Source: a virus
Direction: 5' to 3' (one strand)
Length of the DNA stretch: 25,407 bases
Virus record (IMG/VR): IMGVR_UViG_3300030060_003967
Location: 1 to 25,407 of that record
Part shown: in pieces, positions 1,432-21,136 of the stretch
Position numbering within the stretch: position 1 is the stretch's first letter
How the letters are laid out: every line of letters begins with the position of its first letter
Notes under the pieces: model-generated
Database searches by the model: none
Told to the model about the DNA's origin: nothing
Seen by the model: only the letters and a program-made list of their open reading frames with translations
Position numbers and translations under genes: made by a program

Positions 1432-1815
1432 CTACCCGTCCCACCTAGCCTTAGAAAGGCGCACGTCGTAGTGCGTGAAGTTTGAACCAGGGTACACACC
1501 GATGCCACCCTGCGGGATGATGCCCTCAGCAATGAGCTCCTCAAGACACGCTGACACCTCGGCCGGGGTCTTCCCACTGAGCCGGATGTCAGCAGCCTTG
1601 GCTGTTAGGTGTTGAGACTTAGACGCGCCACCGACACGCTTGTTGTATTCCTTGGTGCGGTAAGCGGAGATGATTACGACAGGCGCTCCCATGCGAGCTC
1701 GAAGATGCTCGAGTGCGAGGCATAGCGCAGCCACGTTGCCTTGATATTTAACAGGCACCTGGGTGCCATCCTTGCAGGCGAACTCGCTAAGCTTAAAGTG
1801 TTTGGTGACTTGCAT
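1432..1815 (-). CDS. M15-family peptidase (Peptidase_M15_3-like), probable endolysin
   Basis: This is a zinc-dependent peptidoglycan peptidase of the D-Ala-D-Ala carboxypeptidase/endopeptidase type. The 127-residue protein is a single domain: N-terminal KHFKLSEFACKDG, then SAYRTKEYN (residues 50-58), SQH with candidate zinc ligand His69, AADIR with Asp76, and GGIGVYP followed by THYDVR with His115. This pattern matches M15_3 phage enzymes in order and spacing. The ATG at 1815 is preferred over the longer frame (to 1914) because AAGGAG lies 7 nt upstream and the longer frame would run deep into the preceding gene. No signal peptide is present, so release would depend on a holin. It starts 1 nt after the stop of the giant virion gene. 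A virion-associated peptidase is the alternative; the downstream lipoprotein and TM gene favour lysis. Confidence 0.9.
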   Translation of the reverse strand: MQVTKHFKLSEFACKDGTQVPVKYQGNVAALCLALEHLRARMGAPVVIISAYRTKEYNKRVGGASKSQHLTAKAADIRLSGKTPAEVSACLEELIAEGIIPQGGIGVYPGSNFTHYDVRLSKARWDG

Positions 1816-1816
1816 G

Positions 1817-4800
1817 CTACGGCTCCTTGCTTGGCTGACCTTTCCCGTCAAAGGTTTTTGAGTAGTCCTTAACCGTCTGCTGAGCGGCCTTGTCTTGCTC
1901 TTTGACCATATCAATACGCGCGTCTATCTCATTGTTTAAACGCTTATTGAACTCTTTGTACTCTAGCTTCAGCGACCTCAAAGTCATCCTTGCCGAATCT
2001 ATCATGCGCTGGTTGTTACTGCGTTTAGCCTCCTTTAAACGCAACTCGGCCTTATCAATCTCTCTCTTTGTGATAGACCCGACCATCTCTTTAACGGTTC
2101 TCTTCATCTTCTTTTTCAAAAACTTCTCTGTGACAGAGCCTTCGCCAAGAAACATCTCAAGCCTTGGTAGGTTGAAAAAATGGTCAAGCATTAGGTCTGT
2201 CAGCTGCATCTCCGCGCGCCTGCTGACCTCTGTCTTTGGAGCCGGGGGGCGATATTGAGCTCCAGCAATAAACTCAAGATAATCGATATCTGACTGTATC
2301 TCTCTGAACAAAGAGGCACGCTCTTCGCCGCCCAAGCTATTGTCCATATCGATGTTGTTTAAGAGTTCTTTCCGCTCATTAATAAGCGCCTCAGCTTGGG
2401 CTGATATGCTCTTGCCAAAAACCCTAGGCAAAAAGCTCCTTTGAGAGAACTTGACGGCCTTGGCTACGAAGTCCCATTCACCGGCACCCATGCGGAGGTT
2501 TCTGCCACCGACCTTGTACCCACGACCATCTGTCAACGCTACAAGCAACTCGCCAATGACACTGCTGCCCAAAAGAACCGAGTCCATCAACGCTTTTTCG
2601 CTAAACCCGTAGCCTTTGGTTGTGGGGTTGGCTAACCCCTGCGCAGCTTTAAGCCTTGCACGCTCGCGTGGAGGAAGCTTCTTAACGTCTTCCGGCTTTA
2701 TGTTGAACATCTCCTTTCTTTTCTCTTCGGTAAGGTAAGAGAGTTCAGTCGGGTCAACATACTCAAGCCCTTTTGAGAGCATAGACCGAGCACCCTCCAT
2801 CCATCTGATGGTGTTGCCAAGGTCCTCGATAGGGCTTGAGTTACCTAAAGGCCAAACACTATAGGCACCCTCCTCCCCAGTAGGCTTAACTATAACTGGC
2901 TTCACCTCATCAGGGCTGAACGCTTTAGCCAAACGGAACAAAGAGCTTGTCTCATCGGACTGCGCAGCCTGAGAGCCAACGACGGAATTTATTGTCAGGC
3001 CGTGAGCAACGGCCTCTGCGTTTCGCTTTAGCATCAAAGGCAAGTAGTCGGTCGTGCTCCTTCGAGCAGGACCAGAAAGTATTTCTCCAACGATGCCTTG
3101 GCGCCCAGGCACCATTGTTGTGGCAGCGGTCCACCCGCTCCAAGGCGACTTGGCCAGCGCGTCCCACGCAGGTGTTGACCGGCCAGCAACCTGTATAAGT
3201 GGCATACGATTAAAGTTCACGAAGGTCTGTGCAGCCTCAAACGCAGACGACCTCGTCATCTCTTGCAGCATCTGGGCTCGAGTAAGCTGCTTGCCATCAA
3301 TAACCATGTCAGACATGTTCGGCTTGTTTGTGGCGCGTTTATAAGCACGCTTCTCTACGCCCCGGCTCATAGGCAGAGTCAAGCTCTTGCCTTCAGGCAG
3401 CGTCTGCCACTCGCTCACGTATTTGTTGACGCCTTTCATGGTGGCCCAGCCCTTGAAGACGTTGTCTGGCATGTCAAACAAGCGAGCTAAAGCGTTTAAC
3501 TCAAGACCCTTAGACAGCCCCTTCTTGGCTTTGGTCAAGAAAGAGTCAACGGCTCTTGGGGCTAAAGCCTTTGAGGGCAGCTCAGTTAAAACAAAGCTGC
3601 TGTCAAGTATATCGCCACGGGTAATCGCCCTCATAACCTCTTCAGCACTATATAGTGCGTTAGCGGCCTTGGCTTTTAACTGCGGTATACCCTTGCTCCA
3701 TCGGGCGTAGTCTATGCCCCACTTGATTGCCTCAAGAAAAGCGAGCGGGTTGGCGTACTTTAGCGCAGCAGCTGCCGAGTTAGACAGCCACGCGGCGGCA
3801 TGTGACGAAGGGTTAAGCGCAACGCCTCCCTTTTTTACAATCCGGGCAAGGCCTTCAAAAAACGCATCCACGCCCGTTGGGCTTTGAGCCGATTGGCCAA
3901 GCCACTTCCTGTCTTTGGAGATGTATCTCAGCGATTGAAGGAGATCGGCGCTCATCCAGAGCTTACCTTGTGCCGGTGTTTTGGGGCCACTGGGGCCAAC
4001 CGGGGCAAGCTCATTTAGAGGGATGCGCACGTCTCTTCCGCTGGCCGTCCCTTTACCAACATTAAACCCAAGCACGTCTCTTGCAATCTCAGGAGGCACC
4101 TCCTTCATGTTTTCAAGCCTGCGGCGGAGCAACTGAGGCATCTCTGGGGCTGCATCCAGTAACAACTCAGGCGGGTTACGGATGAGTGGCGGAAGCGTGC
4201 CGTTGTCAAGCAACTCCCCAACCAGGAAGCCAACCTCTTCTCCAGGCGTAGGCAGTGACTTGCCAGCAGCCTTTCCGTCCATTGATGTGCGGATAGCCTC
4301 GTCGGGGTGCAGTTTCGCGAGGGTTTTCTCGGCTGTGCTTTGGTGCGATAGCTTGCGGAAACGGGTGCCAGCGCGACTAAAGTTGGCAATCGTCATGTCT
4401 TTGGACACGTTCTGCCTAAGCGTTTCGTTAACGCCTAGCCTGCGCTCCATAAAATCTACAACCGAAACATTCTTTCGAGCTCCGCTCTGCCAGTGATTAT
4501 ACCCAATGTTAAGGTCGTAGACTGTACTGGGGTCGTCAGCCGCTTTCTCTAGTTGAGCTCGCAGCGACCTCTTATCAACTGGCTGGCGCGTTTCCTTCTC
4601 AAGGAAGGCAGCTAGTTTCCTAGTCGCATCGCCCCTGAGCGCTTCTATTTGTAGATTGTTCGCAATGTTTTCCGCGCGCGCCGCTTGAAACTCTTCATAC
4701 ATAAGGCGCCTAGCGTCTGGCACCCGGTCCCCTATAGTCTCTGCCATGTCCTCAATGATCTGAAAAACGCGCGCATTTACGTCTTTAACCTTCGGGTCTT

Positions 4801-7117
4801 TTTTAACCAACGTATCTACAGAACCGGCAACAGGCCTGGTCTTTCCGTCAGCGCCTAAATCAAACTGGCGTTGAGAAAACTCAAAACCCCGAGCAGCCCT
4901 TGGCGGCTCTAGCCCCGGCTCTATCGCTGGGCGCTCATAAGGCTTGCGGCCAACACGTATCTCTGTGGGTGGAGTAAAGGGTGGAGGGGTTGGTCGCGGC
5001 GGTACAACACTTACACCTGGGCTAAGTTCCGCCTTGCTGGGAGCCCAGGTGTCTCTTAAAGCTATCTCAAACCCAGGCTGGACTGGAGTTGTGTCAACGG
5101 GTGGGGGGTTTCGTCGAGCTTCTATTTGAGCCCTAATGTTTGCGACCTCTGGCAACACTTCAGGCGCGTCTACGACCCTTAGCCCTCCTTCACCTAAACC
5201 TGCATCTGCCGGATCCAAAGGCCTGCGGGTTACCTCCATAGAAGTAGGCCGTGTTGAAGACGGTTGGCGTGAGCGGTTAACCAAGCCAACTATCTCTTCC
5301 GCAGAAACCCCCCTCCTAACTAAAGCCGCGACAAGGTCAGCCATCACAGGATCGCTCTGCATTATATCGACTAACTCCGCAGCGACAGTCGGGCGAGCTT
5401 GACGCTGAGGTGGCCTAAGAGCAAATGTCTCAGCCCCTTCGACGGCTGGACCTAACTTTAAGGGCTCTACAAGGGCACGCCTTAGAGGCTCAACCATCGG
5501 TTTAGGCTCAGGCACATCCCTAAACGTGAACCCCTCAGGCGCTGGACGTACTGCTGGCTCATCAAACGGCGCACGTTCTTCATATGCTGGCCTACCGGCT
5601 CGAGGCCTAGGAGGCGGGTCAAGCCTAGGGCCTAAGGCCTCTGACAACTGAGTCCCAGCCGCCCTCACAGCCGCTTCAGCCTGAGGAGCCTCAACAAGGA
5701 GCTCATTGGCAAGCTTGTTCATGGCAGGGTCTGCCATCTTCGCAGGGTCTACTTTCCACCGCTGGAAAGCGTTAGATAATCTAACAACTTGGTCAACAAG
5801 GGCGCCGACAGAAACGCGGACCTCTGGAATATTTTTATCAAACTCGGACGCAAGCCTATCAACAAACCCGCCTTTCTTTGGGAAGGTTAACTCTGGAACT
5901 TTTTGAGCAGCGTTGTAGACCTTGCTTGCCACGCTTGCAGCAGCAGGAGACATCTTAATGTATCCAGCGCGAGCAAGCGGATAAAGCGTAAAGGCTGTGG
6001 CCACAGGGTATGCGCTTGCGACATTTTCTGGCTCTTTAAACAGGGCCTTAGTAAAGGCAACCATATCATTGCCCATTTGAGGCAAGACCTCTTGGGCCTC
6101 ATCAACTAAAACCTCGTTGATGCCCTCAAGAACACCCTTCGCCTCAGGCCCGGATGCTATCTGCCAATACTCTTTTGGGATGTTGCCGCCTGACATCCAA
6201 TTGAGCATGTCAATAGTAGACTCAACAAACTCAAACGAGTTCTCAGACGCGCGCTCAAGAAACGGAGCCCCCTCGATGCGCCTCACAGCGTCTTTAAGGA
6301 CTTCGTCAGTGGTCTTAACAGTGTCCGCATCTTGCTGTTCAAATAAGCGATCGAGTTCTCGACGACGTTCAGCAGACAAAACAATGCCTCGGCCTATTTG
6401 CATTGGCTCGTCGCTGGACCATTGCTCAGGCGCCAAAACAGACACGCCCTCGAGCGCTTTGTTGCCAATCCACTGAGCAGACTCACCTGCAAACACGCCT
6501 AACCTAGTAGCCATGGCCGCAGCCCTGCCAGCTAGCCGGTCTCCCGCGCCCGACAAAGCAGCTTTTTGATAAACGTCAAGACCTCTTTCAAGGTCTAACT
6601 CAGCCTGAAGCTCAGGCGTTTCGTCAGGCCTCAAAGCGTACTGAGCCATCTCTAGAGGCGCTCGGACCACCCCTGACCCACCGCCCTCTTGCAGCACCGG
6701 GTATGCTTGCTTTGTCCTTATTAAGGCTTGGTCGGGGCGCTGCCTAATCGCCTCAGTTAACGCTGAAGGGAGCCTTTCCACAGGCTGATTGCGCAATGCT
6801 GCTTGACCAGGTGGCGCCTCAAAAGGTCGCTGCACATCCGTCGCATACGGCAGCGGGCGCTGTGGAGGTGGGCGCATTCCGGTTGCTGGCTCAGGTTGAA
6901 AACCAAACACAGCAGGCCGCTCAAACGTCAACGGAGCTCCACGTTGAGGCCCCTCTCCTGGCATTAAGGGCGCAGAGGCAAACTGCTCACCGAGCTCAAC
7001 ATCTTGGCTGGCAGGGTCAAGGGGGTCGACACCAAAGCTCGACATAATCTCAACAAAACGCTCTTTGGTTACGCCTTGCGCAGCCAAACGCTGAGCCATC
7101 TCCCTAACAGTTGCCAC
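1817..7117 (-). CDS. Giant 1766-residue virion protein, probable internal/ejected protein (T7 gp16-like by position)
   Basis: The largest gene here probably encodes an internal virion protein delivered into the cell with the DNA. It starts with GTG at 7117, preceded by AGGTAGG with a 5-nt spacer. Four regions are visible. Residues 1-500 are mostly helical with a hydrophobic patch near 370-390. Residues 500-750 are Pro-rich and contain two degenerate repeats (residues 508-535 and 723-748). Residues 1090-1335 contain KKGGVALNPSSHAAAWLSN and later FVNFNRMPLIQVAGR, resembling the C-terminal modules of large phage polyvalent proteins. Residues 1660-1760 are Lys/Arg/Glu-rich and coiled-coil-like. 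I find no protease, transglycosylase or polymerase motif. It follows genes of 293 and 654 codons, as gp16 follows gp14 and gp15 in T7. The 3' end (about 1840-2500) looks more A+T-rich than the capsid gene. The virion role is inferred; catalytic activity is unknown. Confidence 0.85.
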   Translation of the reverse strand: MATVREMAQRLAAQGVTKERFVEIMSSFGVDPLDPASQDVELGEQFASAPLMPGEGPQRGAPLTFERPAVFGFQPEPATGMRPPPQRPLPYATDVQRPFEAPPGQAALRNQPVERLPSALTEAIRQRPDQALIRTKQAYPVLQEGGGSGVVRAPLEMAQYALRPDETPELQAELDLERGLDVYQKAALSGAGDRLAGRAAAMATRLGVFAGESAQWIGNKALEGVSVLAPEQWSSDEPMQIGRGIVLSAERRRELDRLFEQQDADTVKTTDEVLKDAVRRIEGAPFLERASENSFEFVESTIDMLNWMSGGNIPKEYWQIASGPEAKGVLEGINEVLVDEAQEVLPQMGNDMVAFTKALFKEPENVASAYPVATAFTLYPLARAGYIKMSPAAASVASKVYNAAQKVPELTFPKKGGFVDRLASEFDKNIPEVRVSVGALVDQVVRLSNAFQRWKVDPAKMADPAMNKLANELLVEAPQAEAAVRAAGTQLSEALGPRLDPPPRPRAGRPAYEERAPFDEPAVRPAPEGFTFRDVPEPKPMVEPLRRALVEPLKLGPAVEGAETFALRPPQRQARPTVAAELVDIMQSDPVMADLVAALVRRGVSAEEIVGLVNRSRQPSSTRPTSMEVTRRPLDPADAGLGEGGLRVVDAPEVLPEVANIRAQIEARRNPPPVDTTPVQPGFEIALRDTWAPSKAELSPGVSVVPPRPTPPPFTPPTEIRVGRKPYERPAIEPGLEPPRAARGFEFSQRQFDLGADGKTRPVAGSVDTLVKKDPKVKDVNARVFQIIEDMAETIGDRVPDARRLMYEEFQAARAENIANNLQIEALRGDATRKLAAFLEKETRQPVDKRSLRAQLEKAADDPSTVYDLNIGYNHWQSGARKNVSVVDFMERRLGVNETLRQNVSKDMTIANFSRAGTRFRKLSHQSTAEKTLAKLHPDEAIRTSMDGKAAGKSLPTPGEEVGFLVGELLDNGTLPPLIRNPPELLLDAAPEMPQLLRRRLENMKEVPPEIARDVLGFNVGKGTASGRDVRIPLNELAPVGPSGPKTPAQGKLWMSADLLQSLRYISKDRKWLGQSAQSPTGVDAFFEGLARIVKKGGVALNPSSHAAAWLSNSAAAALKYANPLAFLEAIKWGIDYARWSKGIPQLKAKAANALYSAEEVMRAITRGDILDSSFVLTELPSKALAPRAVDSFLTKAKKGLSKGLELNALARLFDMPDNVFKGWATMKGVNKYVSEWQTLPEGKSLTLPMSRGVEKRAYKRATNKPNMSDMVIDGKQLTRAQMLQEMTRSSAFEAAQTFVNFNRMPLIQVAGRSTPAWDALAKSPWSGWTAATTMVPGRQGIVGEILSGPARRSTTDYLPLMLKRNAEAVAHGLTINSVVGSQAAQSDETSSLFRLAKAFSPDEVKPVIVKPTGEEGAYSVWPLGNSSPIEDLGNTIRWMEGARSMLSKGLEYVDPTELSYLTEEKRKEMFNIKPEDVKKLPPRERARLKAAQGLANPTTKGYGFSEKALMDSVLLGSSVIGELLVALTDGRGYKVGGRNLRMGAGEWDFVAKAVKFSQRSFLPRVFGKSISAQAEALINERKELLNNIDMDNSLGGEERASLFREIQSDIDYLEFIAGAQYRPPAPKTEVSRRAEMQLTDLMLDHFFNLPRLEMFLGEGSVTEKFLKKKMKRTVKEMVGSITKREIDKAELRLKEAKRSNNQRMIDSARMTLRSLKLEYKEFNKRLNNEIDARIDMVKEQDKAAQQTVKDYSKTFDGKGQPSKEP
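1823..1828 (-). promoter_or_regulatory. Ribosome binding site deciding the M15 peptidase start
   Basis: The minus-strand AAGGAG lies 7 nt before the ATG at 1815 and inside the last codons of the giant upstream gene. It supports the short 127-residue M15 product. Confidence 0.8.
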
Positions 7118-7127
7118 GTGGACCTAC

Positions 7128-9092
7128 CTATTCTGGGCTCTTGGATGGCATAAGGCCCAGCTCTGCCGCTAGGTTACTAACCTTAACAAAGTCGGCCTTT
7201 ATTTGGCGCAACTCTTTTTGGATATCACCTTGCGACTTTTTAGTATCACCGTAAATTTCGTCCCAAGCAATAACCGCATTAGGGTCGTCTGAAGACTGAT
7301 ATTTACTTCGGACAAACTCCTTAAGGGTCATTTTAGACTCTGGCCTGTTCCTATCTAGATAACTGGCTACGGCTGCCTTGCTAAGGCCAGACACTGGTGT
7401 GAGAATAAGCCCTGACAGCTCACTTTTTTTGCCCTTTTCCGTCTTCTTAGCCTCATCCCGCTCCGCCTTTTCCGTCTCCGCAGTCGTGCGCGTCTTGCCA
7501 ATGTTAGAGAACAGCTTGCTAAGCAGGATCTCTTCGCCTCCTGACGTTATGGTGAGGCGATTTAACTCTTCCTGCGTAACTTCCCTCTCGATCGTGCGCG
7601 CGCGCGCCGCCAACCTGGCCTGCTTTGTGGATGGGTCGCCACTCTTTTTGCCGTACAAAATCCTCCTGGCGTCAGATAAACCGTCGAAACCCGCAACGAT
7701 CACGAAATTCCTACTAGCCTTCTCTTCTTCGGTCAGCGGACCAGTCATGACTGATTTCTTAGTTATTTTGCTCGGAGTCGCGCGCCTCCTGCGCCTCTTT
7801 GCCGCAGAGGTTGCCAGTTTAACCGCTTGAGTGCCCGTCACACCACCAACGTCGGCGCCCTTGCGAATAGCTTGCCGAGCTCTTGCCACAATGAGGGCTC
7901 TTGGCTCGTTACCGCTGACGACAAACTGGCCAATATCCATAGCACCACGCGCCAGACCAACAAGCTCCTCAGCCTCCTGCTGCCTGCCAGCATTCCACAG
8001 CGCTCGGTATGCCATATTAAGGTCACCAACAGCAAAGTCTTGCCCAGCTTCAAAGTCTCGAGCAAACTCAGCAGCAGTCCTCGGCTTATCTAGCAGGCTT
8101 CCCCTGCTTCGACTTTCAATAAAGTCAAACGCAGACGCCTCTGGACCGCCAGACCCTTGCAGTGCCGCTCTAAACTCAGCAGCGGCTCGTGGCATCCCGT
8201 TTGCTTCAGCCAGCTCTACTGACTTCTCAACAAGACGGGCTTCAAGTCCTGGGTCTTGCATCTGAGCGACTCTCCCCAAGACCTTTTTGAAGTTGTCTAT
8301 GACCAAGTCTTCTTTGACCCTGCCTGGCTCCAACGCAGCTGGTGCAGCCGCTGGCGAGGCAGGCGCGCCAAACTGACCTGACCGCTGCATACGGTCAAGA
8401 TACCGCCCAAACGTCTCTGCGCTACCGGGTGCCAAGTTCCGTCGCCCGAAGTCGCCAACCCTAAGCATATTTCGCACTTCATCAACATTCATGCCGCGCT
8501 GTGCTGCGTACTGTGGCAACAGCCTACCGAGCTTGCCCAAGTCTCCAATAACTTCAGACTCGTTAAGCCCTGTAGTCGAAGGTGCAGGAGCAGCGGCCTC
8601 CGCTGGAACACCAAGGTAATCGAGAGCACCTTCTGGAGTTTCTGTAAAGGGTGCCGGTCGCGGGGTGTCAGCACGTATGGGAAACTCAAGGCCGCTAGTG
8701 ATGTCACGCTCCGACCGTGCGGCCTTATATTCTTGCACAAAATCTTTCTGCGCCTCATCAAACGCGGCTGACCGTCGAGAGCCAATCATCGGGTCGTACT
8801 GGTCGCCAACCATGCCGCCAACCATGCCCCTTGCAACCTTCTGACGAGCCTCAAAGTCGCCCATCTCTCTTTGCAGCCGAGCCTTTGCTTCAGCCGCTGT
8901 CTCCTTGATGTACTTGTCGTAGATTTCAGAGCCCATGCCGTACAGGTCAGAGGCAATCTGCACCCCGCCTCCGATGGCCTTGATAATCTTCAACGCCTTA
9001 TCTTCGTCGCTTTGGACCTTGGTCATAAAGCGTTGACGCTGTGGGACAATGGGCCCAAATCCACTTGATACGTCTGGAAGAATGCGCGCCAT
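7128..9092 (-). CDS. 654-residue probable internal virion protein (T7 gp15-like by position)
   Basis: I do not recognise the family. The ATG at 9092 has CGGAG upstream, and the gene begins 2 nt after the stop of the 293-residue gene. The protein is largely helical and hydrophilic. The N-terminus (about residues 30-60) has a short Gly-containing amphipathic stretch, KAIGGGVQIASDLYGMG. Pro/Ala-rich linkers lie at about 140-175 and 240-255. A strongly basic patch, KRRRRRA, lies at about 432-438. The C-terminal third is rich in Lys and Glu (EKAERDEAKKTEKGKKSE). There is no membrane segment or signal peptide. As the middle member of a small-medium-giant trio downstream of the tail genes, it most plausibly is an ejection protein. 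The basic patch could bind DNA or RNA during packaging or ejection. Both roles are inferred from context. Confidence 0.82.
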   Translation of the reverse strand: MARILPDVSSGFGPIVPQRQRFMTKVQSDEDKALKIIKAIGGGVQIASDLYGMGSEIYDKYIKETAAEAKARLQREMGDFEARQKVARGMVGGMVGDQYDPMIGSRRSAAFDEAQKDFVQEYKAARSERDITSGLEFPIRADTPRPAPFTETPEGALDYLGVPAEAAAPAPSTTGLNESEVIGDLGKLGRLLPQYAAQRGMNVDEVRNMLRVGDFGRRNLAPGSAETFGRYLDRMQRSGQFGAPASPAAAPAALEPGRVKEDLVIDNFKKVLGRVAQMQDPGLEARLVEKSVELAEANGMPRAAAEFRAALQGSGGPEASAFDFIESRSRGSLLDKPRTAAEFARDFEAGQDFAVGDLNMAYRALWNAGRQQEAEELVGLARGAMDIGQFVVSGNEPRALIVARARQAIRKGADVGGVTGTQAVKLATSAAKRRRRRATPSKITKKSVMTGPLTEEEKASRNFVIVAGFDGLSDARRILYGKKSGDPSTKQARLAARARTIEREVTQEELNRLTITSGGEEILLSKLFSNIGKTRTTAETEKAERDEAKKTEKGKKSELSGLILTPVSGLSKAAVASYLDRNRPESKMTLKEFVRSKYQSSDDPNAVIAWDEIYGDTKKSQGDIQKELRQIKADFVKVSNLAAELGLMPSKSPE

Positions 9093-9094
9093 GA

Positions 9095-9976
9095 TTACTC
9101 CGGTACCTGGCTTTGACCCATTGAGGCAATAAAGCCTTCAATCACGTCGGGCTCATTGACCGCTATAACCTGGGCGCCTTCAGGCCTGTTTGAGTTGTAA
9201 AACTGCCTAGCCATGTTCCAAAAAGCGTCTCTGTTGTTGCTGTCAGTCGACCCTGTCCAAGACGCAAACAGTTGGCTTATCGGCATGCCTGAACTCATTA
9301 AGGCCTCGAGAACAACGTCGCTGGGCATGTCGGCAGGGTTTTCGGTTGCCATCATCCAAAGCTGCTTAAATGCGCTCTTAGCCACACCTCTTTGCGTGGG
9401 GTCATTAACGTCAAGCGCGCCAACCAGGTTGCTAATATTTTGCGCGGCCTGCTCCTCATTGACTTGGCCAGACTCGTACTCATTAACAAACTGGTTGACC
9501 TCTTGGTTAAAGGCAGCCACTGCTTGCTGTTGGCCCTTCGCAATCTCGCCTTTCTTTGACACCAACTCAGACTTGCCCTGAGCTGCGCGCTCCCTAAGGT
9601 CATTGTAGGCCTGCATCGCACCGAGTTCAGCCTGCGTGGCTTGAGCCTCTGAGGCTGCTGCTGCCGCCATGCGTTCACGCATACCTTGCGCCGCTATAGA
9701 GCCACTAGCCTGCGCCGCTCCACCACCAGCAGCCATGCCTTGTGCAGCACGACCTGCTTGGCGCGCAAGCTGGGCTTGCTCTAAGACATTTGCCGCTGCC
9801 GTAGCTCGCCTAATGCCAGAGCCCACCCTGCCAGCAGCGCCCTGCATGCTTTGAGCAGACGACTCTAAGGCTGCCTGCTGCCCAGCAAGTGCAGACAGGA
9901 GGTCTTCCTGCTGCTGGCCTTTAAGGAAAGGCGAGACGCTAATCCCTGCCGGTCCACCTTCTGAGCTTGAACTCAT
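9095..9976 (-). CDS. 293-residue Ala/Gln-rich probable internal virion protein (T7 gp14-like by position)
   Basis: No family is recognised. The ATG at 9976 is preceded by GAGGTG. Residues 25-150 are extremely rich in Ala, Gln and Gly with long helical segments (EQAQLARQAGRAAQGMAAG, AAAAASEAQATQAEL), typical of phage internal or ejection proteins that form long helices. The C-terminal half is more varied, with Asn/Asp-rich parts (NVNDPTQRG-like, SWTGSTDSNNRDAFWNM). It lacks a signal peptide and a true membrane span. It is the first and smallest of three consecutive large-virion-protein candidates and lies 8 nt downstream of the 610-residue structural gene. The virion/ejection role is inferred from composition and order. 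Confidence 0.8.
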   Translation of the reverse strand: MSSSSEGGPAGISVSPFLKGQQQEDLLSALAGQQAALESSAQSMQGAAGRVGSGIRRATAAANVLEQAQLARQAGRAAQGMAAGGGAAQASGSIAAQGMRERMAAAAASEAQATQAELGAMQAYNDLRERAAQGKSELVSKKGEIAKGQQQAVAAFNQEVNQFVNEYESGQVNEEQAAQNISNLVGALDVNDPTQRGVAKSAFKQLWMMATENPADMPSDVVLEALMSSGMPISQLFASWTGSTDSNNRDAFWNMARQFYNSNRPEGAQVIAVNEPDVIEGFIASMGQSQVPE

Positions 9977-12752: not shown

Positions 12753-13357
12753 TAGAGGTTTCCTGTGCCGGTTGCGGTGCCGGGGGTAAACAGCGTGGGG
12801 TTGCCAGTAAAGTTGTAGCAAAAAGCAATCTGGACGCTCGCAGCAGCCCCCGTGTGAGAGACCAGCGGAGTCGCTGTTGTTCCGCTGCCCCTAAACACAC
12901 ACCCAAGCATAATGGCTTGAGCTCCCGCCTCCACCAAGACCATATAGGAGGTAGACGTCAACGGCCTCTCAAAGGTGCAGTTTCTAAATATTGCAGTCGC
13001 CCCTGCCCTCACAACTGCGCAACCAAGCTCGTCTTCGCCTGCAAGCGTAAGGCCGTCAACCACAACGCTAGACGTAACCTCGAGGTGCTTCCTGAAGAAG
13101 GTGCCCGGAGATATCGCGTGCGCCTCACTCATGACTTTACTCATGGTCAGGCCGCCATACTCACCTGGGGCAAAGAGAGAGACGTTGTTTGCTATGCGCG
13201 GCTCTTCAAACTTAGACCCCGGCATCACAAGGCTTAGCGCAGATGCTATGTCTCCAAGCTTTCTGCGGACTATCTCATTGAAGCCTTCAGCAGCAGCGGT
13301 GTCCTTTTGCTTAGGTGTTCTGCCCTGTCGCTTGGCCAGCCAGAGTTCGTTAAGCAT
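12752..13357 (-). CDS. 201-residue beta-helix-like structural protein (possible tail spike or fibre component)
   Basis: Residues 1-45 are charged and helical (KRQGRTPKQKDTAAAEGF). From about residue 55 the sequence becomes short beta strands alternating with turns: VVVDGLTLAG, AVVRAGATAIFRNCTF, VLVEAGAQAIMLGCVF, SVQIAFCYNFTG. Such roughly 20-residue rungs with inward small hydrophobics and Asn/Cys at turns resemble right-handed parallel beta-helices of phage spikes. The rungs are few, so it may be a trimerising spike fragment or a co-assembling partner of the neighbours. AGGAGG lies ahead of the ATG at 13357, which overlaps the upstream stop as TAATG. The function is inferred from fold-like pattern and location after the tail hub. 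Confidence 0.78.
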   Translation of the reverse strand: MLNELWLAKRQGRTPKQKDTAAAEGFNEIVRRKLGDIASALSLVMPGSKFEEPRIANNVSLFAPGEYGGLTMSKVMSEAHAISPGTFFRKHLEVTSSVVVDGLTLAGEDELGCAVVRAGATAIFRNCTFERPLTSTSYMVLVEAGAQAIMLGCVFRGSGTTATPLVSHTGAAASVQIAFCYNFTGNPTLFTPGTATGTGNL

Positions 13358-16218
13358 TATCTGCCCCTCCTGCGCCTACCCGCCCCAACAACGCGGAACA
13401 GCAGCTTAACGCTCTCGAGCTTCAGCCGCTCTGCTGGGTTGCGCATAAAGCCAAAGAGCATCATTGCTACGCTGTTGCCCTTCATGGACTCAGAGGTAAC
13501 AATCTCATCAACCTGCTCGTCGCCAATCAGGTAGGTGTTTGCCTCAAAGGTCTGCGTGGCCTCGTTACCGTACACAATGCCTTGGCCGTAGTTCGGGCGC
13601 ACAATGGTCTTGTCGGCTTTCTGGACTCTATCCCTAACGGTGCCGTGCGTGTTGACATCTGGATACAGGTTGCTTTTAACGCTTACCGGACCCTTGAAGG
13701 CGGTTGGGTTGCCCACATAGTCAAGCACCTGTGACGTCCACATCTTCATGTCTGACGCCATCATAGTGTTGAAGATGCTCTGCGACGACGAACCTGTCAC
13801 ATCGGTGCCTACGTCGTGGCTGAGAAGCCTTGCAACGACGCCACGACCTTTGACCCTAGCGTCTTCAGGCAGCCCCACGTCTTCGGACATGTACGCCCAG
13901 TCGACAGGCTGGGCTACGTTGTCCTCCTTGTTGGTGTCAAACAAGCGCCACTGGCACCAAACAAGCACCTCTTCTGCTGAGTGAGACGCAGCAGCGCCAT
14001 CGTATATGACACACCATGTGCTGATATCTCCTAAAAGTGGCGTCGGCAGTGTTAACGCCATCGACGACACGTTTGCGTCTGTGGTTGTCTGCATTGGTAT
14101 GTAGCAAAGCAGGTTGAGTTTGTTTGGCGTAAGGTTGATGTACGGCGCAAACGTGTGAGCTGGAACAACTGCGCTCCCGTCCCAGTCGAGGTTTATCTCG
14201 TGGCCGGTTCTGGTAGCGTTGCCAGCGCCGTCTTCACACTTGCGCTTGCCTGTTCCTAGCGACCACCCAGACGCAGACGCTGTGCGCTCTGGAGGGAACA
14301 CGAGGTTAATGTCGGTTGACGTGCCGTTGTCGAAGACGGGGCGCCATTTCGTTGAGTCAAAGAAGAAGCGTATGCGTATGCGGTCAATGCTGTTTGCAGC
14401 AGCAGCGCCTGTCCACAGTGGTCCTGGCACCAAGTACACAGGCACCAAAAACGTCTTGTTTGGCGCCGCAGGCGCTGACTCTCCAGTCGGAGCGGCGGTG
14501 CTTGTGCCCTGAAACTTGTACTGCTGCTCTACTGGTATCCACTCGCCAAACACTAATGTAGGCGTGTAGTTGCTAGGCGTTACGCCAGCTACAGCATACT
14601 GCTTGTATTTGCCAGCAAGCCCCCTCTCGTCCTCGTCGTCTACGCTTCTGTCAATCGCCCCGCCACGGCCGTACTCAAGCAAGTATGCAGAGCGCGATGT
14701 TGAGCTGTCGTTAACTGCAACATTCCCCGCTGTCCTTGCCTCGTCTACAAACGCTTGGGTCTGCAATGAGCCCACGAGATAGAAGCTTTGGTCTCTACAC
14801 AGCAGCCACGGGCGCTCGATGTTCTTCTCTGCACCGACATCGGGCAACGCTGCATGGCCACCAGTGTTAGACTCATAAGTCCACACAGACCACTGGCCCT
14901 CCGAGTAGCACAGACTTAGCCGCTCATCTGGAAGCGTGACAAAGAGCGCGGAGAGCTTCTCACTGTAAGTCATCGAAGCGCCATTGAGGTTGGGCTTAAT
15001 GACACTGTTGCGCTGCGGTAGGCTAGTGTTGATAGAGCCCGTCTCTGCCGTCACCGTTGTGAAGAACGTCGTCATCGGGTCAGTGATGAAGTCAGTGAAC
15101 AGTGGCGCTATCGGCCCCGAGATTGTCTCAATCTGCATGGGGCTGCCAGAGACGTGGACGCCTGTGCTTCCAAGCCACATAACAGCGTTGTCCGTTTTAG
15201 TTACACATGACTGAGACACGCACCCGATGGTGTCTGAAACCAGTACAGGGGCCATGCCCTGTGAGGAGATAGGGTCTCCGGTTCTGCTGGCTGGCTGGTA
15301 GAAGAACGTCTCAGTCTCAGTAAAGATGTAGATGCTCTGGCCCATAGGGGCCATAGCCGTAATGGACTGCTCAGTAGGCACAACTATGTAATCAAAGTCT
15401 ATGTACGCAGTGGGGGTGTACGGCTGCGAGAAGAAGACCTCTCTTTGGTTGCCAGCAATAACAAGCCTGCTGTCCCAAGAGATAAGCGCTTGCGGAGAGG
15501 GTATGCCAGCTGACGTCCTGTACACATATGCGTCTGTGTCTGCGCCTGGAGAGGGTTTGACCCTCCAGATCATAGAAGACTCTGAGTACGGAGGGCACCA
15601 AGAGTGCGGGTGCGCACCGGACACGAATCTTCGCCGTGAGCCCCTAAACGTACACGGCGTATATGCGTACAACTGCGTAGCTGGAGAGCCAAAGTAAACC
15701 GTGTCTCCAACCTCTGTGAACTGAAAGTTTTCCTCAGAGGTTGCGACTACCCACGCCTGAAAGTCTTTATCCCTGTTGGTTTCGTAGTGACCCTTGCGCT
15801 GGTCGTTGTCCTCTTTAACAAAGCCAGACTCTGACGTGTGCCTATACAGCGGCTCTTCCCAACGCTCTCGAGTGGTTGTGTCATAGATGCTAACCACGTA
15901 CACGTTGGCTATTTGAGCTCGCTCATTGTTGACCTCAGACGAGTGTATCCTGGCTTTGAAGACACTGAGTATTTGCTCGTGCCCAAAGTCGGTCTGCATG
16001 ATGTAGCTGCCGAGGTGTTTTTGGTATCCCCAAGAGGTGCTCGCGCCATCTATGTTGTGCGTTATGCGAGTGTCGAACTGAGCAAGCTGGCCAAAGCCCT
16101 GCCTCACCTCCCAAGCGCCGTACCTGCGCACTAGGTTTAAAGCAAAGCTGCCCTTGGATGGTCGGTCGCTTCTAATGCCGCCGCCGAGGACTTCGACCTC
16201 GTCGTACTTAACCGCCAT
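13357..16218 (-). CDS. 953-residue tail hub/nozzle protein (T7 gp12-like role)
   Basis: This gene probably encodes the large tail tube/nozzle protein that closes the short tail. About residues 240-370 show repeated propeller-like strands, such as ISWDSRLVIAGNQREVFFS, AMAPMGQSIYIFTETETFF and VMWLGSTGVHVSG. These are typical of the beta-propeller core of podovirus gp12-type proteins, and the length is close to T7 gp12 (about 790) and its longer relatives. The N-terminus (LNLVRRYGAWEVRQGFGQL) resembles the opening of such proteins, where a default mixing or reference strand is set. The C-terminus ends in a basic tail (GAGRRRRGR). It directly follows the adaptor gene without any spacer (TAG then ATG), the order expected for gp11-gp12. 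The propeller assignment is by eye. Confidence 0.85.
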   Translation of the reverse strand: MAVKYDEVEVLGGGIRSDRPSKGSFALNLVRRYGAWEVRQGFGQLAQFDTRITHNIDGASTSWGYQKHLGSYIMQTDFGHEQILSVFKARIHSSEVNNERAQIANVYVVSIYDTTTRERWEEPLYRHTSESGFVKEDNDQRKGHYETNRDKDFQAWVVATSEENFQFTEVGDTVYFGSPATQLYAYTPCTFRGSRRRFVSGAHPHSWCPPYSESSMIWRVKPSPGADTDAYVYRTSAGIPSPQALISWDSRLVIAGNQREVFFSQPYTPTAYIDFDYIVVPTEQSITAMAPMGQSIYIFTETETFFYQPASRTGDPISSQGMAPVLVSDTIGCVSQSCVTKTDNAVMWLGSTGVHVSGSPMQIETISGPIAPLFTDFITDPMTTFFTTVTAETGSINTSLPQRNSVIKPNLNGASMTYSEKLSALFVTLPDERLSLCYSEGQWSVWTYESNTGGHAALPDVGAEKNIERPWLLCRDQSFYLVGSLQTQAFVDEARTAGNVAVNDSSTSRSAYLLEYGRGGAIDRSVDDEDERGLAGKYKQYAVAGVTPSNYTPTLVFGEWIPVEQQYKFQGTSTAAPTGESAPAAPNKTFLVPVYLVPGPLWTGAAAANSIDRIRIRFFFDSTKWRPVFDNGTSTDINLVFPPERTASASGWSLGTGKRKCEDGAGNATRTGHEINLDWDGSAVVPAHTFAPYINLTPNKLNLLCYIPMQTTTDANVSSMALTLPTPLLGDISTWCVIYDGAAASHSAEEVLVWCQWRLFDTNKEDNVAQPVDWAYMSEDVGLPEDARVKGRGVVARLLSHDVGTDVTGSSSQSIFNTMMASDMKMWTSQVLDYVGNPTAFKGPVSVKSNLYPDVNTHGTVRDRVQKADKTIVRPNYGQGIVYGNEATQTFEANTYLIGDEQVDEIVTSESMKGNSVAMMLFGFMRNPAERLKLESVKLLFRVVGAGRRRRGR

Positions 16219-16890
16219 CTACATCCACCTTACGTCAACGACGCGCTCCACAATGCCGCCAGCACGCCCCTCAAGGTACGTCCTCAGCTGCTCAATACGC
16301 CGAGCAAGCTGGCCGTTCAACTCGTTGTTCGGTGCGACATCAACGATTGCATATTGCAAGTAAGCCAGCATAGCGATGATGTCATGAAACCTGTTTAGGT
16401 CGTCGATGTAGGTCGTGCCTGCGCCGCCTGCGTTAGACCAGGTGACGCTCGGCTCAGGAATGTAGTCAATCCTGATATCCATCGTTACAGCCTCAGGAAA
16501 GACGAGCTCAGTTCCGCGCAACGTGTAATCAGCTCGAGAGTCATACGTGCTGGTTACTGACAAAGATGGTTGTAGGTTCTCGACAATGTTGTTTGGTTGC
16601 GACGGGCTCTCAATAGAGTAGATGTTTACAAGCTGGTAAAGCCTTGTGCCCGCTGCTGCGGTAGAGCCCAAGATGGCTGGCGCTGACGTAGCCAAGTCGA
16701 GCAAGCGCACGTTGGACAACGAGTAAACCTGCTGCCTTGAATATATCTGCGGGTCCATCTCTGTGACCAAGGCTCTAAAATCGTCGTATGCGCTCGTGAG
16801 CCAAATGACCATCTGCGCGTCACTGACAAACGTCTGGTCTGGCTCATCCATGTACACCCGGAAAAGCGCGGCAACCTCTTCGACTGTCAT
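16219..16890 (-). CDS. Head-to-tail adaptor (gp11/gp4-like connector protein)
   Basis: The 223-residue product is probably the adaptor ring that joins portal and tail hub. The N-terminal helical part, with VEEVAALFRVYMDEPDQTF and a tryptophan-containing helix (VIWLTSAYDDFRALV), fits the helical bundle of P22 gp4/T7 gp11-type adaptors. A beta-rich insertion in the middle (about 60-150) contains RADYTLRGTELVFPEA, and the C-terminal helices include LNRFHDIIAMLAYLQYAIVD. The position between portal and tail hub is the conserved one for this protein. The start overlaps the portal stop as ATGA, a classic translational-coupling arrangement. No alternative role fits both size and place. Confidence 0.85.
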   Translation of the reverse strand: MTVEEVAALFRVYMDEPDQTFVSDAQMVIWLTSAYDDFRALVTEMDPQIYSRQQVYSLSNVRLLDLATSAPAILGSTAAAGTRLYQLVNIYSIESPSQPNNIVENLQPSLSVTSTYDSRADYTLRGTELVFPEAVTMDIRIDYIPEPSVTWSNAGGAGTTYIDDLNRFHDIIAMLAYLQYAIVDVAPNNELNGQLARRIEQLRTYLEGRAGGIVERVVDVRWM

Positions 16891-18851
16891 CCCCCACCTC
16901 CCTGCATGGACGATATTGCGCTAGGAAGACCAGGCAAGTTCTGCCCTTCTGTAGGCATTGGCGTTTGCTGCATAGGGTCCATGGCTGGGGCAGGCTGAGC
17001 CACTGGCATCATTTGGGGCGCAGTTTGTTTTGGAGACTGGTGCGGAGAGACGGTCTTTATGTCAGACGCTGCCTGCCACTGAGCATCTGGCGCTCCAAAC
17101 ATGTTCACATCGACAATAAGCTGAGCAATGTAGTTCTGCGTTTCAGGGGGCAGGTCGTAATACGCAGTCGACTGGACAAACTCAGTAAAGACCTTGGTAA
17201 AGGCCTCGAGGTTGTCTGTCGGCAACACCTGAACCTTGCCACCCATAATGACTGCCTGGAGCATGTCTTTGAAGTGGCTTATCTGAATGAACTCTTCGGT
17301 GATGCGCTTGTCAAAGGTGCGGAAGCTAATGGCATCTCGAGCTTCTTCTGGCGTCATAAGACCAAGCTGCGCCATCTCGAGAACTCTAGACTCGCGGTTA
17401 GCTGCGTCGAGCTTAAAGAGCGTGTTCCCGTCGATGTAAATCTCAGGGTTGTCAACAATGTCAGTGTTAGAGATGGCTTTCCACGCAGGCACCCCAGCGA
17501 CGTCAAGCATCTTAATGACACGTCGCTCAGTGTAGTGCCGCTTCATAAGCATGAGCACAGTGAGCATGGTGTCTTCAACCGCAGCGACAATCTCCTGCTG
17601 AGTTGCCAGTAGCTGTGCAGAGTCCTGCTGAGTAAGTGTTCGCGCATGCACACCGCTCTTAACACCAGCCTCTCTGCGCCCCAGGGTGGCACCGTGCGCA
17701 CCCGCAACATCGCTCATCTCTTCTCGCAGAAGAGCGGGCTCCCGCACCACATGAGCTGGCAGCTGCTGTGGCGCTGCTGGGCTTGGAGCTCCACCGCCAG
17801 GCGTGAACCTAATCACACCACCAGGCTTGTTCATGATGGTGCCCTTGCGGACGTCAGCTGTGCGAGGGATGAGCCAGGGAGGGTTGCCCATCAAGCGCAC
17901 GTTTGCGTGGATCTGTGTCCTAGTCCGGTTATACAGCTGCTGAAGGTCGGCGATCTGGACCATTGGTCCCTGGCCCCAAAGGTCGCCTTCAATAACGTGA
18001 TACCGGACTAGGCGCACAGGAAACGTATCTCGAACGTCCTCGCTGAACTCTGTTTCAAGATACAGGCTGCCTGACATGATTGCATGACGACCGTCTCTCC
18101 AATAGACCTCATAGACCTCAAGACGGCCTTCAGGTGAGTATTCTTGGAAGTCGTATCGGCGCTCATTATCTGTAGAAGAGAGCTGCTCAATCCTGTCAGC
18201 CTTATCAGGGTAAGTGTCCTTTAGCTCAGCCTTAGTGGAGTAGCTCCTAATCGCTACCCAGCGAGCCTCTTCTGGAGAGTGGACACCTGGCTCGTAGAAC
18301 ATGTTCAGGGGACTGATTATGTCGCACTTGACGCGACCCATGACCTTCTTGGTCCCCACCACCTTGTCTGGTTTTGGCCCATCGATCTCTTCGTTACCAG
18401 GCATAGAATCAGCGGCCTTGGTCACTTCATATGGTGGCTCGTAGTAAGTGTGCAGCCCGCAGTTGCCCGTCTGGCACATCCACCGGATGCACTCTTGCCA
18501 CTTGCGGGTCTGCTTATCCGACAGCCAAAAGTATCTCAGCGCCATCTCTGACGCTGTGGCCTTGGTGATATCGTCTATAGTGTCGCTTGCCGGGATAACC
18601 ACCGGAGTGGGCGTGTTGAGCGTCAACCTTGAAAGGATGCTGCGCTCTATGTTCATCATCTGGTTGACGGTGACTCGGACCTGCTGTGGAGCTCGAGGCA
18701 CGTCGCCGTAACGCTTAGCGCGCTTGTCCCAATACAGCCACTGGTCCCCACGCAACATACGGATAGCTGCTGACCACTCCCTATCCTGCCTGGTGCGCTC
18801 GCTCTTCGATCGAGAGATCCGAGACTGCATGTCTGTTGGGAACTTAGCCAT
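16887..18851 (-). CDS. Portal protein
   Basis: The 654-residue product forms the dodecameric ring through which DNA enters and leaves the head. The N-terminal region has WSAAIRMLRGDQW and VNQMMNIERSILSRLT, matching the portals of P22- and N4-like podoviruses. The middle holds the conserved cluster DLWGQGPMVQIADLQQLYN (about 290-308) and NPPWLIPR, then NKPGGVIRFTPGG (about 341-353), all characteristic of this family. The segment GVKSGVHARTLTQQDS (396-411) is a common portal motif. The C-terminus (after about 600) is Pro/Gln/Met-rich and probably disordered or part of the barrel. The gene lies downstream of the capsid gene and its terminator, whereas most podoviruses place portal before scaffold and capsid. 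Confidence 0.92.
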   Translation of the reverse strand: MAKFPTDMQSRISRSKSERTRQDREWSAAIRMLRGDQWLYWDKRAKRYGDVPRAPQQVRVTVNQMMNIERSILSRLTLNTPTPVVIPASDTIDDITKATASEMALRYFWLSDKQTRKWQECIRWMCQTGNCGLHTYYEPPYEVTKAADSMPGNEEIDGPKPDKVVGTKKVMGRVKCDIISPLNMFYEPGVHSPEEARWVAIRSYSTKAELKDTYPDKADRIEQLSSTDNERRYDFQEYSPEGRLEVYEVYWRDGRHAIMSGSLYLETEFSEDVRDTFPVRLVRYHVIEGDLWGQGPMVQIADLQQLYNRTRTQIHANVRLMGNPPWLIPRTADVRKGTIMNKPGGVIRFTPGGGAPSPAAPQQLPAHVVREPALLREEMSDVAGAHGATLGRREAGVKSGVHARTLTQQDSAQLLATQQEIVAAVEDTMLTVLMLMKRHYTERRVIKMLDVAGVPAWKAISNTDIVDNPEIYIDGNTLFKLDAANRESRVLEMAQLGLMTPEEARDAISFRTFDKRITEEFIQISHFKDMLQAVIMGGKVQVLPTDNLEAFTKVFTEFVQSTAYYDLPPETQNYIAQLIVDVNMFGAPDAQWQAASDIKTVSPHQSPKQTAPQMMPVAQPAPAMDPMQQTPMPTEGQNLPGLPSAISSMQGGGG

Positions 18852-18853
18852 GT

Positions 18854-19402
18854 TTAGGCAGCTCCGTAAGGCGAGCCAAACGAAAACATCTGCGCGTCTT
18901 TTGGTGTCTGCCTCATCGCCCTTAGAGCGTTAAGGTTGCTAGAGCCTGGAGTCGCAAGCGCCACTGTGTCTTCAGTCGCTCTATTCTTAAGAGGCGTTCC
19001 AAAACCAGCAGCACCGCTTGCTAGTCCACCAACAAGCTGGCCCACCCCTGCACCAGTGTTGCCCTCCGCCAGGTTCTCAATGCCAGAGCCAATCTGTTGG
19101 CCAGCGGCCATACCAGCGGCTCCTCCAGCCAGCCCAGCGCCGATTGCCGAGCCAAGCCCCCCAGCGGCAGTACCGGCTGCCGTGGCCCCACCAGCGGCGG
19201 CTACAGCAGGTGCGGCAGCAGCAGCCACACCTCCGGTCACGCCTGTCGCAATACCTAGGCCTACCGGGAGTAAGATCTTAGTAAGGAAGTCGTCAAAGCC
19301 AAACCCACCAGACTGCTGGTGAGCCTGCTGGTTCCTTTGCGCTAGCTGCTGGCGCAGAGCTGCTGCTCTTTGAGGGTCTATAAAGCTTTGAGGGTTAACC
19401 AT
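18854..19402 (-). CDS. Gly/Ala-rich hydrophobic 182-residue protein (virion or membrane-active)
   Basis: No family is recognised. Residues 1-35 are polar and Gln-rich. Residues 40-130 are an unusual run of Gly, Ala and Val (ILLPVGLGIATGVTGGVAA, then SAIGAGLAGGAAGMAAG and GQLVGGLASGAAGFG) with glycine-zipper-like GxxxG spacing. Such segments are found in membrane-inserting peptides and some phage head or ejection proteins. The start at 19402 is supported by GGAGG 9 nt upstream, inside the 51-residue gene, and by overlap with that gene's stop. It lies between capsid terminator and portal. A membrane-pore role at DNA entry or a minor head protein are both plausible. Composition alone cannot decide. 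Confidence 0.78.
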   Translation of the reverse strand: MVNPQSFIDPQRAAALRQQLAQRNQQAHQQSGGFGFDDFLTKILLPVGLGIATGVTGGVAAAAAPAVAAAGGATAAGTAAGGLGSAIGAGLAGGAAGMAAGQQIGSGIENLAEGNTGAGVGQLVGGLASGAAGFGTPLKNRATEDTVALATPGSSNLNALRAMRQTPKDAQMFSFGSPYGAA

Positions 19403-19609: not shown

Positions 19610-21136
19610 CTAGGTAGGCGTGATGCCGGTCAAGATGACCTGAGCGTTAGGCCGCTTGCAGACAATGTTGTAGCGGTGCTTCCAGAAGCCCTCGTAGGCG
19701 TCCTGTCCAGCCACGCGGAAGAGGATGTTTCCGTCCTCGTCTGCGAACTGGCCGCTAGCAAGCTCTGCCAAACACCAGTCCTTGCTGTGCAAGAGCGCGA
19801 TAGTCGAGACAGGGAAGTGCCGGTCATACTGGAACTTCACGCCGCCGTAGGCCAAGTTCTGCTGGTTGTCCATCAGCTTGCCGCCTGACCCATCAACAGT
19901 GATGTTGCTGTTTGCGCCTGCGCCAGCGGTGGTGCCAAGAATCCCAGTCAGCTGAACCGTGTAACGGTGACGCATAAGAGCGTTCATCACCATCACGTCT
20001 GCATCGACACCAGCGTCCTGCATCATGATGTCCATCATGTACTGCAAGCGCTCGAGGCTCAGGTCCGCACCAGCGTTGGTACGGTCTCCGTCGCCCACGT
20101 CGTGCGTGACGAGCGTGCTCTTGAGGATGCGCTGGTCAAGGTCCGCGCCTGTTGCAGTCGTATCGTTACGAGCCACGCCAAAGTGAACCTGAGAAGCGAG
20201 GTTCTCAAAGAGCCCGATGGACTGGTTGTTAACGATGTTCTGAGCGCCAAGAGCGCCAGTCCACGTGGCAGGGTTCTGGCCAAACGCCACAGGCACACTG
20301 TCCTGCGCTTGGTTGCTGTGAAGACGCAAAGCAATCGCGCACTGCCTTCCCACATTTGCTGTTGTGAACGAGCACGCGCCAGCATCGTCAACACCAACTG
20401 TCAGCGTAACCGTCGGGTTGGTTCTGTCTGCACTAAAAGCGCTAACAAAGATGTTGGCATTGGCTGCGGCTGCGCCAGTGGCGTTTACAGTCACCGGAAT
20501 CAAGTCGTAGGTGTTCAAGTCAACAAGCTCAACACGCACCCAAGTGGCTGGCGTTGCAGGGTCGACAGCAAGGCCTGTGCGTGAGCCGTCGAAATAGCTG
20601 AAGTCGCCCTGGTACTGCCACACAACTCCGGTAGATACGTTTACTCCAGCGGCAGTCTGAGCACCGCCAGTGTTCTGCCCGAGCGCACGACGCTGGTTCA
20701 GCAGCCCCTTGGTGGGTCCACCAAAAATGTTGACGGAGTTCTCGTTGTTGGAGATGTCGCGCACAAGGCGGTCCATCTCTTCGTTCATAACTCCAGCAAA
20801 CGCACCAGCACCCGCCGAAGAGGCAGTGTCCATCGCGAGGCCGCTGACCTGAAAGCGCCCGTAGGAGCTGTGCGCGTTAACGCGAAGGTCGCGGTACTGC
20901 TGCTGACCAGCGGTCGGGAGCGCACCTGGCGCCTCGCCTTGGTAGCCAACACCGCTGTTGCGGCCAATGTGGATAGGCATGACCAGCTGCTTACCTGTCC
21001 AGCCTTTTGTGTACTTCTTAAAGTACTCGGTCATCCAGACGCGGTTATTGATCTGCTCGGCCACTGGGCCTTGATAAAACTCTTTGAGCATGGGGCCGAA
21101 AGTACCGGCTCCAGCGATTCCTACTGTTGCTGCCAT
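19610..21136 (-). CDS. Major capsid protein (HK97-fold type)
   Basis: The 508-residue protein forms the head shell. The N-terminal region, with FYQGPVAEQINNRVWMTEYF and GKQLVMPIHIGRNSGVGY (about 48-65), is typical of podovirus-type major capsid proteins. The stretch YGRFQVSGLAMDTASS (92-107) corresponds to the E-loop/spine-helix junction and is followed by the helix MNEEMDRLVRDISNNEN. The middle (about 165-270) is beta-rich with Thr/Ala/Val repeats (VTLTVGVDDAGACSFTT) and may be an inserted surface domain. The C-terminal half contains the P- and A-domain-like segments and ends VCKRPNAQVILTGITPT. AAGGAGAG precedes the ATG at 21136, consistent with high expression. It sits directly after scaffold and directly before the terminator. 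Assignment rests on sequence style plus position. Confidence 0.9.
   Translation of the reverse strand: MAATVGIAGAGTFGPMLKEFYQGPVAEQINNRVWMTEYFKKYTKGWTGKQLVMPIHIGRNSGVGYQGEAPGALPTAGQQQYRDLRVNAHSSYGRFQVSGLAMDTASSAGAGAFAGVMNEEMDRLVRDISNNENSVNIFGGPTKGLLNQRRALGQNTGGAQTAAGVNVSTGVVWQYQGDFSYFDGSRTGLAVDPATPATWVRVELVDLNTYDLIPVTVNATGAAAANANIFVSAFSADRTNPTVTLTVGVDDAGACSFTTANVGRQCAIALRLHSNQAQDSVPVAFGQNPATWTGALGAQNIVNNQSIGLFENLASQVHFGVARNDTTATGADLDQRILKSTLVTHDVGDGDRTNAGADLSLERLQYMMDIMMQDAGVDADVMVMNALMRHRYTVQLTGILGTTAGAGANSNITVDGSGGKLMDNQQNLAYGGVKFQYDRHFPVSTIALLHSKDWCLAELASGQFADEDGNILFRVAGQDAYEGFWKHRYNIVCKRPNAQVILTGITPT

Follow-up and report, generated by a model that had tools for sequence, protein, structure and literature searches.

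Which kind of protein does the largest gene of this viral DNA encode, and does its C-terminal side belong to the large-polyvalent-protein-associated domains (LPD)? The window, by which we mean the whole 25,407-nucleotide stretch analysed (IMG/VR virus record IMGVR_UViG_3300030060_003967), carries a giant gene whose C-terminal side was likened to those domains in an earlier note, with an effector or anti-defence domain suggested upstream. Our analysis points with good confidence to an ejection (pilot) protein, the last and largest in a set of three, encoded by a podovirus-like phage from an undescribed group.

The giant gene and its late operon

Positions 1817-7117 of the minus strand translate as a single open ORF of 1766 amino acid residues with a GTG start, and the flagged segment (3113-3850, minus strand) is exactly residues 1090-1335 of this ORF. 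The three strings that had been quoted from the segment were all recovered in the translation: KKGGVALNPSSHAAAWLSN at about residues 1095-1113, FVNFNRMPLIQVAGR at residues 1299-1313 and SPWSGWTAATTMV at residues 1324-1336. The earlier note correctly placed about 1000 residues upstream of the segment, though much of that stretch (about residues 500-745) is a Pro-rich, poorly conserved linker. The regions of the giant gene are:

1817..7117, minus strand: giant protein, proposed third and largest ejection protein (position of T7 gp16 / N4 gp50)
3113..3850, minus strand: flagged segment, residues 1090-1335, with the conserved motifs NPSSHxxAxxxN and FVNFNRMP...SPWSGW
2738..3865, minus strand: conserved C-terminal core, residues 1085-1460, from the conservation profile
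3998..4885, minus strand: middle region, residues 745-1040, alpha/beta in the model (local pLDDT up to about 85)
4883..5620, minus strand: Pro-rich variable linker, about residues 500-745, from composition, conservation and the length differences of relatives
5618..6670, minus strand: N-terminal region, residues 150-500, predicted all-helical at low confidence, without enzyme signature

The other late genes referred to below are:

1432..1815, minus strand: endolysin, M15 peptidase, directly after the giant gene (PF08291, E 1.4e-22; PHROG endolysin)
7128..9092, minus strand: 654-aa protein, proposed second ejection protein (position of T7 gp15 / N4 gp51), 0 cysteines
9095..9976, minus strand: 293-aa protein, proposed first ejection protein (position of T7 gp14 / N4 gp52), 0 cysteines
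13357..16218, minus strand: 953-aa tail/head-closure-type protein upstream of the trio (PHROG 511, 3287, 578)
16887..18851, minus strand: portal protein, P22/SU10 type (Pfam PF16510, PF23899)
19610..21136, minus strand: major head protein (PHROG 14242, E 2.7e-22)
22059..23648, minus strand: terminase large subunit (PHROG 2, E 1.4e-29)

The window thus reads as one coding strand of late genes, with terminase, head, portal and tail genes, a trio of 293, 654 and 1766 aa, and the M15 endolysin. The profile assignments of portal, terminase and head protein agree with a P22/SU10-like podovirus. Between the portal and head genes lies a 182-aa Gly/Ala-rich protein (18854-19402, minus strand) with one hydrophobic stretch; judged by its sequence, it may be a virion protein that inserts into membranes. 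At 2-544 on the plus strand, convergent to the late operon, lies the gene of a separate protein resembling SLT transglycosylases; its counterpart in the related genome G002 (L051 5188-5763, minus strand) has a hydrophobic N-terminus. As endolysin after the giant gene, the window has an M15 peptidase and the relative G010 a CHAP-like protein (L046 349-927, Pfam just under the cut-off), and look-alikes of the CHAP-like protein were seen by eye after the giant gene at L059 2135-2695 and L062 5817-6377. By these assignments the endolysin is swapped between relatives.

Relatives and the conserved core

A direct homologue search with the whole giant protein or the flagged segment as query returned no match. 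Relatives were reached via the portal, which as query retrieved 27 IMG/VR contigs, and then by synteny and an alignment search that added three further fragments. On the contigs that are long enough, the giant gene occupies the same late-operon locus. Complete relatives span 1948-2228 aa (G010, 1948 aa, with G015 nearly identical; G012, 2005 aa; G021, 2228 aa), and the G002 copy is cut by the contig end. In G003 the giant gene (L048 5935-6041) has two overlapping frames after residue ~120, either a sequencing error or a real frameshift. Whole proteins are 21-39% identical to that of the window; the range over IMG/VR is given as 41% to about 25%.

Conservation is best at about residues 1300-1400, and residues 1301-1350 are the best conserved stretch, with 64-68% identity to G010, G003 and G002, 52% to G012 and 34% to G021 (27-39% and 21% over whole proteins, for comparison). 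Because this stretch is the best conserved, we take the flagged segment as the core of the giant protein, and because it is conserved and relatives exist in other IMG/VR contigs, the segment is regarded as real coding sequence. The NPSSHxxAxxxN and FVNFNRMP...SPWSGW motifs are kept in every relative covering them. The residues invariant in the giant protein (R, P, G, D, W and F) are spread out and form no catalytic cluster. The secondary structure of a low-confidence model gives the core (1085-1460) as mainly helical with two predicted beta hairpins.

Scans seeded with divergent relatives gave no new members, and a scan of cellular-genome contigs gave neither copies of the giant protein nor prophage copies. 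Outside IMG/VR, the UniProt protein A0A516L289, which BFVD splits into 974 and 975 aa, matched in its two halves at Foldseek E 5e-39 and 8e-16 and is an apparent orthologue, with 38% and 32% identity over the C- and N-terminal models; the tables consulted give it no function. As judged from these searches, the giant protein is a new sequence family, and this one UniProt protein and a few related IMG/VR contigs are the sole sources of orthologues. Genome G002 (38571 bases; L051 and L052 ends) is classed as linear but carries a direct repeat of 99 bases at the two ends; because of this repeat it is probably a complete circular map of about 38.5 kb.

Gene order, cysteine absence and a proposed ejection course

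The members of the trio are adjacent, run from small through medium to giant, and lie after the tail genes and before the lysis genes. This order is kept in G010 and G002, and in G012 and G021 as far as the contigs reach. The same order is found in T7 (14-15-16), P22 (7-20-16), N4 (52-51-50) and JC1 (67-68-69), and it has been described in a review as an ejection-protein operon (PMC8954989). No match to the 654-aa protein was found in a search of phage records.

The trio has no cysteine in 2713 residues, whereas the remaining late genes have 37 in 4932 (Fisher 1e-7). All full-length relatives of the giant protein have 0 cysteines; L061, one distant fragment, has two. Known ejection-gene sets gave 1 cysteine in 2261 residues for T7 and none in 4294 (N4), 1309 (P22), 5221 (JC1) and 2404 (Shocker), so that in six unrelated phage groups, the window's included, the ejection set is nearly or fully cysteine-free and the other late proteins are not. 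The trait is not exclusive: cysteine is likewise missing from a CRP-7 protein of 1166 aa that is labelled tail structural and from several head and scaffold proteins (300-400 aa). In N4-type virion RNA polymerases (vRNAPs), cysteine absence has been reported and linked to entry into the cell (PMC4837373, PMC2784036), and in StenR_269 and Zobellviridae large cysteine-free helical proteins with poor AlphaFold models were described at this gene position (PMC10747016).

Because of the gene order together with the cysteine absence, it is very likely that the giant protein is injected with the DNA. Starting from the observed gene order, sizes, conservation and cysteine absence, we infer the following course. 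The giant protein would be packed in the capsid along with its two smaller neighbours (654 aa and 293 aa), thread through the portal and tail as a loosely folded chain, and reach the envelope and cytoplasm at the same time as the DNA or before it. If T7 and N4 are a guide, the 293-aa and 654-aa proteins would form an outer-membrane and periplasmic channel; the giant would anchor to this channel and finish the passage at the inner membrane and cytoplasm. In N4 the envelope channel is formed by the two smaller proteins, and the giant follows (PMC12633501). The conserved C-terminal core would be needed for encapsidation or for the cytoplasmic end of the conduit.

Some observations go against an ejection trio. 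A membrane stretch was looked for in the 293-aa protein and none was predicted, unlike in the gp14-like factors of T7, and both structure models of the giant protein are of low confidence. By hhalign and profile searches, T7 gp14/15/16, N4 gp50/51 and Shocker gp36/37 showed no similarity to the window proteins. Gene order and cysteine absence identified the giant protein where profiles failed, and the cysteine contrast could be used as an inexpensive marker of injected proteins that needs no homology. Giant ejection proteins diverge too fast for homology searches, and the new family would join them.

The LPD38 question, rival readings and known systems

The earlier note described a polyvalent-like protein. 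What holds of this is a giant, late-gene product that is very probably injected, as gene order and cysteines suggest; membership in an LPD family did not hold up in HMM and hhalign comparisons. The LPD38 model (PF18857, curated cut-off 27 bits) matched none of the seven records of the group, while the controls JC1 and ctuNt529 were matched at 122 and 31 bits. The giant protein and its full-length relatives had no Pfam, PHROG or NCBIfam hits; Pfam hmmscan of the full-length relatives at E up to 10 listed only chance-level names and no LPD, and the best PHROG match was a tail protein at E 0.033, which is chance level. PDB profile searches with the giant protein, its full-length relatives and profiles gave nothing above noise. 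When the C-terminal family was compared by hhalign with a JC1-based alignment of eight C-termini that carry LPD38, from that phage and its relatives, the probability was 0.2-0.6%, the level of reversed sequences, and that of the positive control ctuNt529 was 96%.

Structure prediction, which had been suggested for separate parts of the protein, was run with AlphaFold2 on residues 745-1660 and 120-560; both models were of low confidence (pLDDT 46.8 and 40.4) and did not settle the fold. The PDB fold search gave no match under E 1. Against viral models, Foldseek gave three matches to the C-terminal model at E < 0.001, one of them named (A0A6J5NWL9, 'Large polyvalent protein associated domain-containing protein', E 2.4e-5, 14% identity, prob 1.00), at TM 0.16 with a query model of pLDDT 47, where low-confidence models can give meaningless matches. 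Because of the low model confidence and this TM-score, the match is counted as a hint that a remote LPD-type relation of the C-terminal core is possible; LPD38 membership by fold likeness was not accepted, owing to the weak C-terminal model.

When consensus sequences were set side by side, the order of elements looked alike by eye in the window family and in LPD38-bearing proteins. The shared first half runs from an NPxxHxxAxxxN helix through a helix with DN or EN to [VI][ND][FY]xxxP, and the second half from P-[FW]-x-x-[WF] or FFN through a helix to a beta hairpin. In JC1, LPD38 itself is residues 4196-4401, downstream of these elements; because it follows them, the flagged segment would match the stretch immediately ahead of LPD38, not LPD38. 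In place, the C-terminal core is the analogue of the LPD38-side C-terminus in other giant phage proteins, to which it may be distantly related.

The upstream effector or anti-defence domain suggested for the first 1000 residues is unsupported: profiles, motifs and the N-terminal model, itself poor, revealed nothing of the kind. Residues 1-1090 had no profile hits and no enzyme signatures, and for the middle region (745-1040) the best E of a PDB profile search was 0.22. HEXXH, the SLT ExSxFNP motif and a conserved Walker A were searched for in the giant protein and its relatives, and none was found. The only viral match of the N-terminal model was a half of the orthologue A0A516L289. The giant protein of G002 has an N-terminal insertion (L052, P0024 about residues 126-170; also in G003) with GSPAYYGTGSLEDVAKYGFEP, which by eye resembles the start of ADP-ribosyltransferase-type domains; an ART domain there was not supported by any Pfam hit.

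Polyvalent proteins in the sense of Iyer et al. (2017) are encoded among virion late genes, as the giant protein is, and have at least two distinct effector or LPD domains, of which Pfam, PHROG, NCBIfam and PDB profiles found none here. We consider it unlikely that the giant is a true polyvalent protein, which would be injected as a carrier of at least one effector or anti-defence domain within residues 1-1090 and have an LPD-type module at its C-terminal side. Its large size, late-gene context and variable middle would suit such a carrier, and so would the LPD-annotated match and the colinear motifs (NPxxHxxAxxN, helix, VNF...P, PF/W-x-x-W, helix, beta hairpin), but the match was built on a model of pLDDT 47, hhalign stayed at the level of reversed sequences, neither LPD nor effector domains nor enzyme motifs appeared in the protein or its relatives, and the N-terminal model found an orthologue half only. 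In a restricted-window hhalign comparison, the JC1 part just before LPD38 (L064) and the N4 vRNAP C-terminus (L076 4524-5780) matched at 90% probability, P 1.8e-6 (reversed control 0.05), and LPD38-bearing and N4-type vRNAP families may, on this alignment, share a C-terminal module around the VNF / VNYD motif. We likewise think it improbable that core 1085-1460 is an unrecognisable member of such a packaging or ejection handle, joined to a variable N-terminal half with an undescribed early-infection activity; if true, giant injected proteins would share a widespread C-terminal module that acts as their handle for packaging or ejection.

A virion RNA polymerase of the N4 type would share the gene position and the lack of cysteine, and FVNFNRMP resembles FINYDRLP near the N4 vRNAP C-terminus. 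This identity was nevertheless rejected and is hardly credible, because PF00940, which tests for the T7 type, was not found in G000, G002, G010, G012 or G021 while the T7 control matched at E 9.9e-110; moreover, the protein is no longer than 1766 aa and has a Pro-rich linker in the place that a polymerase would occupy. Comparisons by hhalign with LPD38, Schitoviridae vRNAP C-termini, the Shocker/Jasmine family and T7 and N4 proteins were at noise level as set by reversed controls, the best being the vRNAP window at P 0.016, uncorrected for several comparisons. A mainly helical build, low-complexity stretches and a late-gene position would also suit a plain internal scaffold or tape-measure-like protein which remains in the particle and is not injected; the podovirus-type order, the three cysteine-free proteins and the known ejection-protein position make this reading very improbable.

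The ejection-protein reading can be set beside several known systems. JC1 gp69 and ctuNt529 UOF80550, both LPD38-bearing, are giant cysteine-free proteins at the end of the late operon in the same trio order, with C-terminal motifs in similar order by eye; the window giant differs in having no LPD38 HMM match and lacks the helicase, methylase, LT and LPD3 domains reported for JC1 gp69. The giants of the actinobacterial phages Shocker (gp37) and Jasmine have no detectable similarity to the window giant itself, but they too are cysteine-free and encoded just before endolysin genes, and the Shocker and DS1 portals are distantly related to that of the window. The window giant has no polymerase and half the length of N4 gp50, whose C-terminal part has a loosely similar motif with hhalign similarity not above noise; the gene trio (with gp51/gp52), giant size, absence of cysteine and multi-domain build with a linker are as in the window. 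Compared with T7 gp16, the window giant has no detectable sequence similarity and no transglycosylase motif, the SLT protein being encoded separately on the other strand. Like T7 gp16 (with gp14/gp15), however, it comes last in a row of three neighbouring late genes and is the largest of them, it is cysteine-free as are T7 gp15 and gp16, and ejection before the DNA is expected for both.
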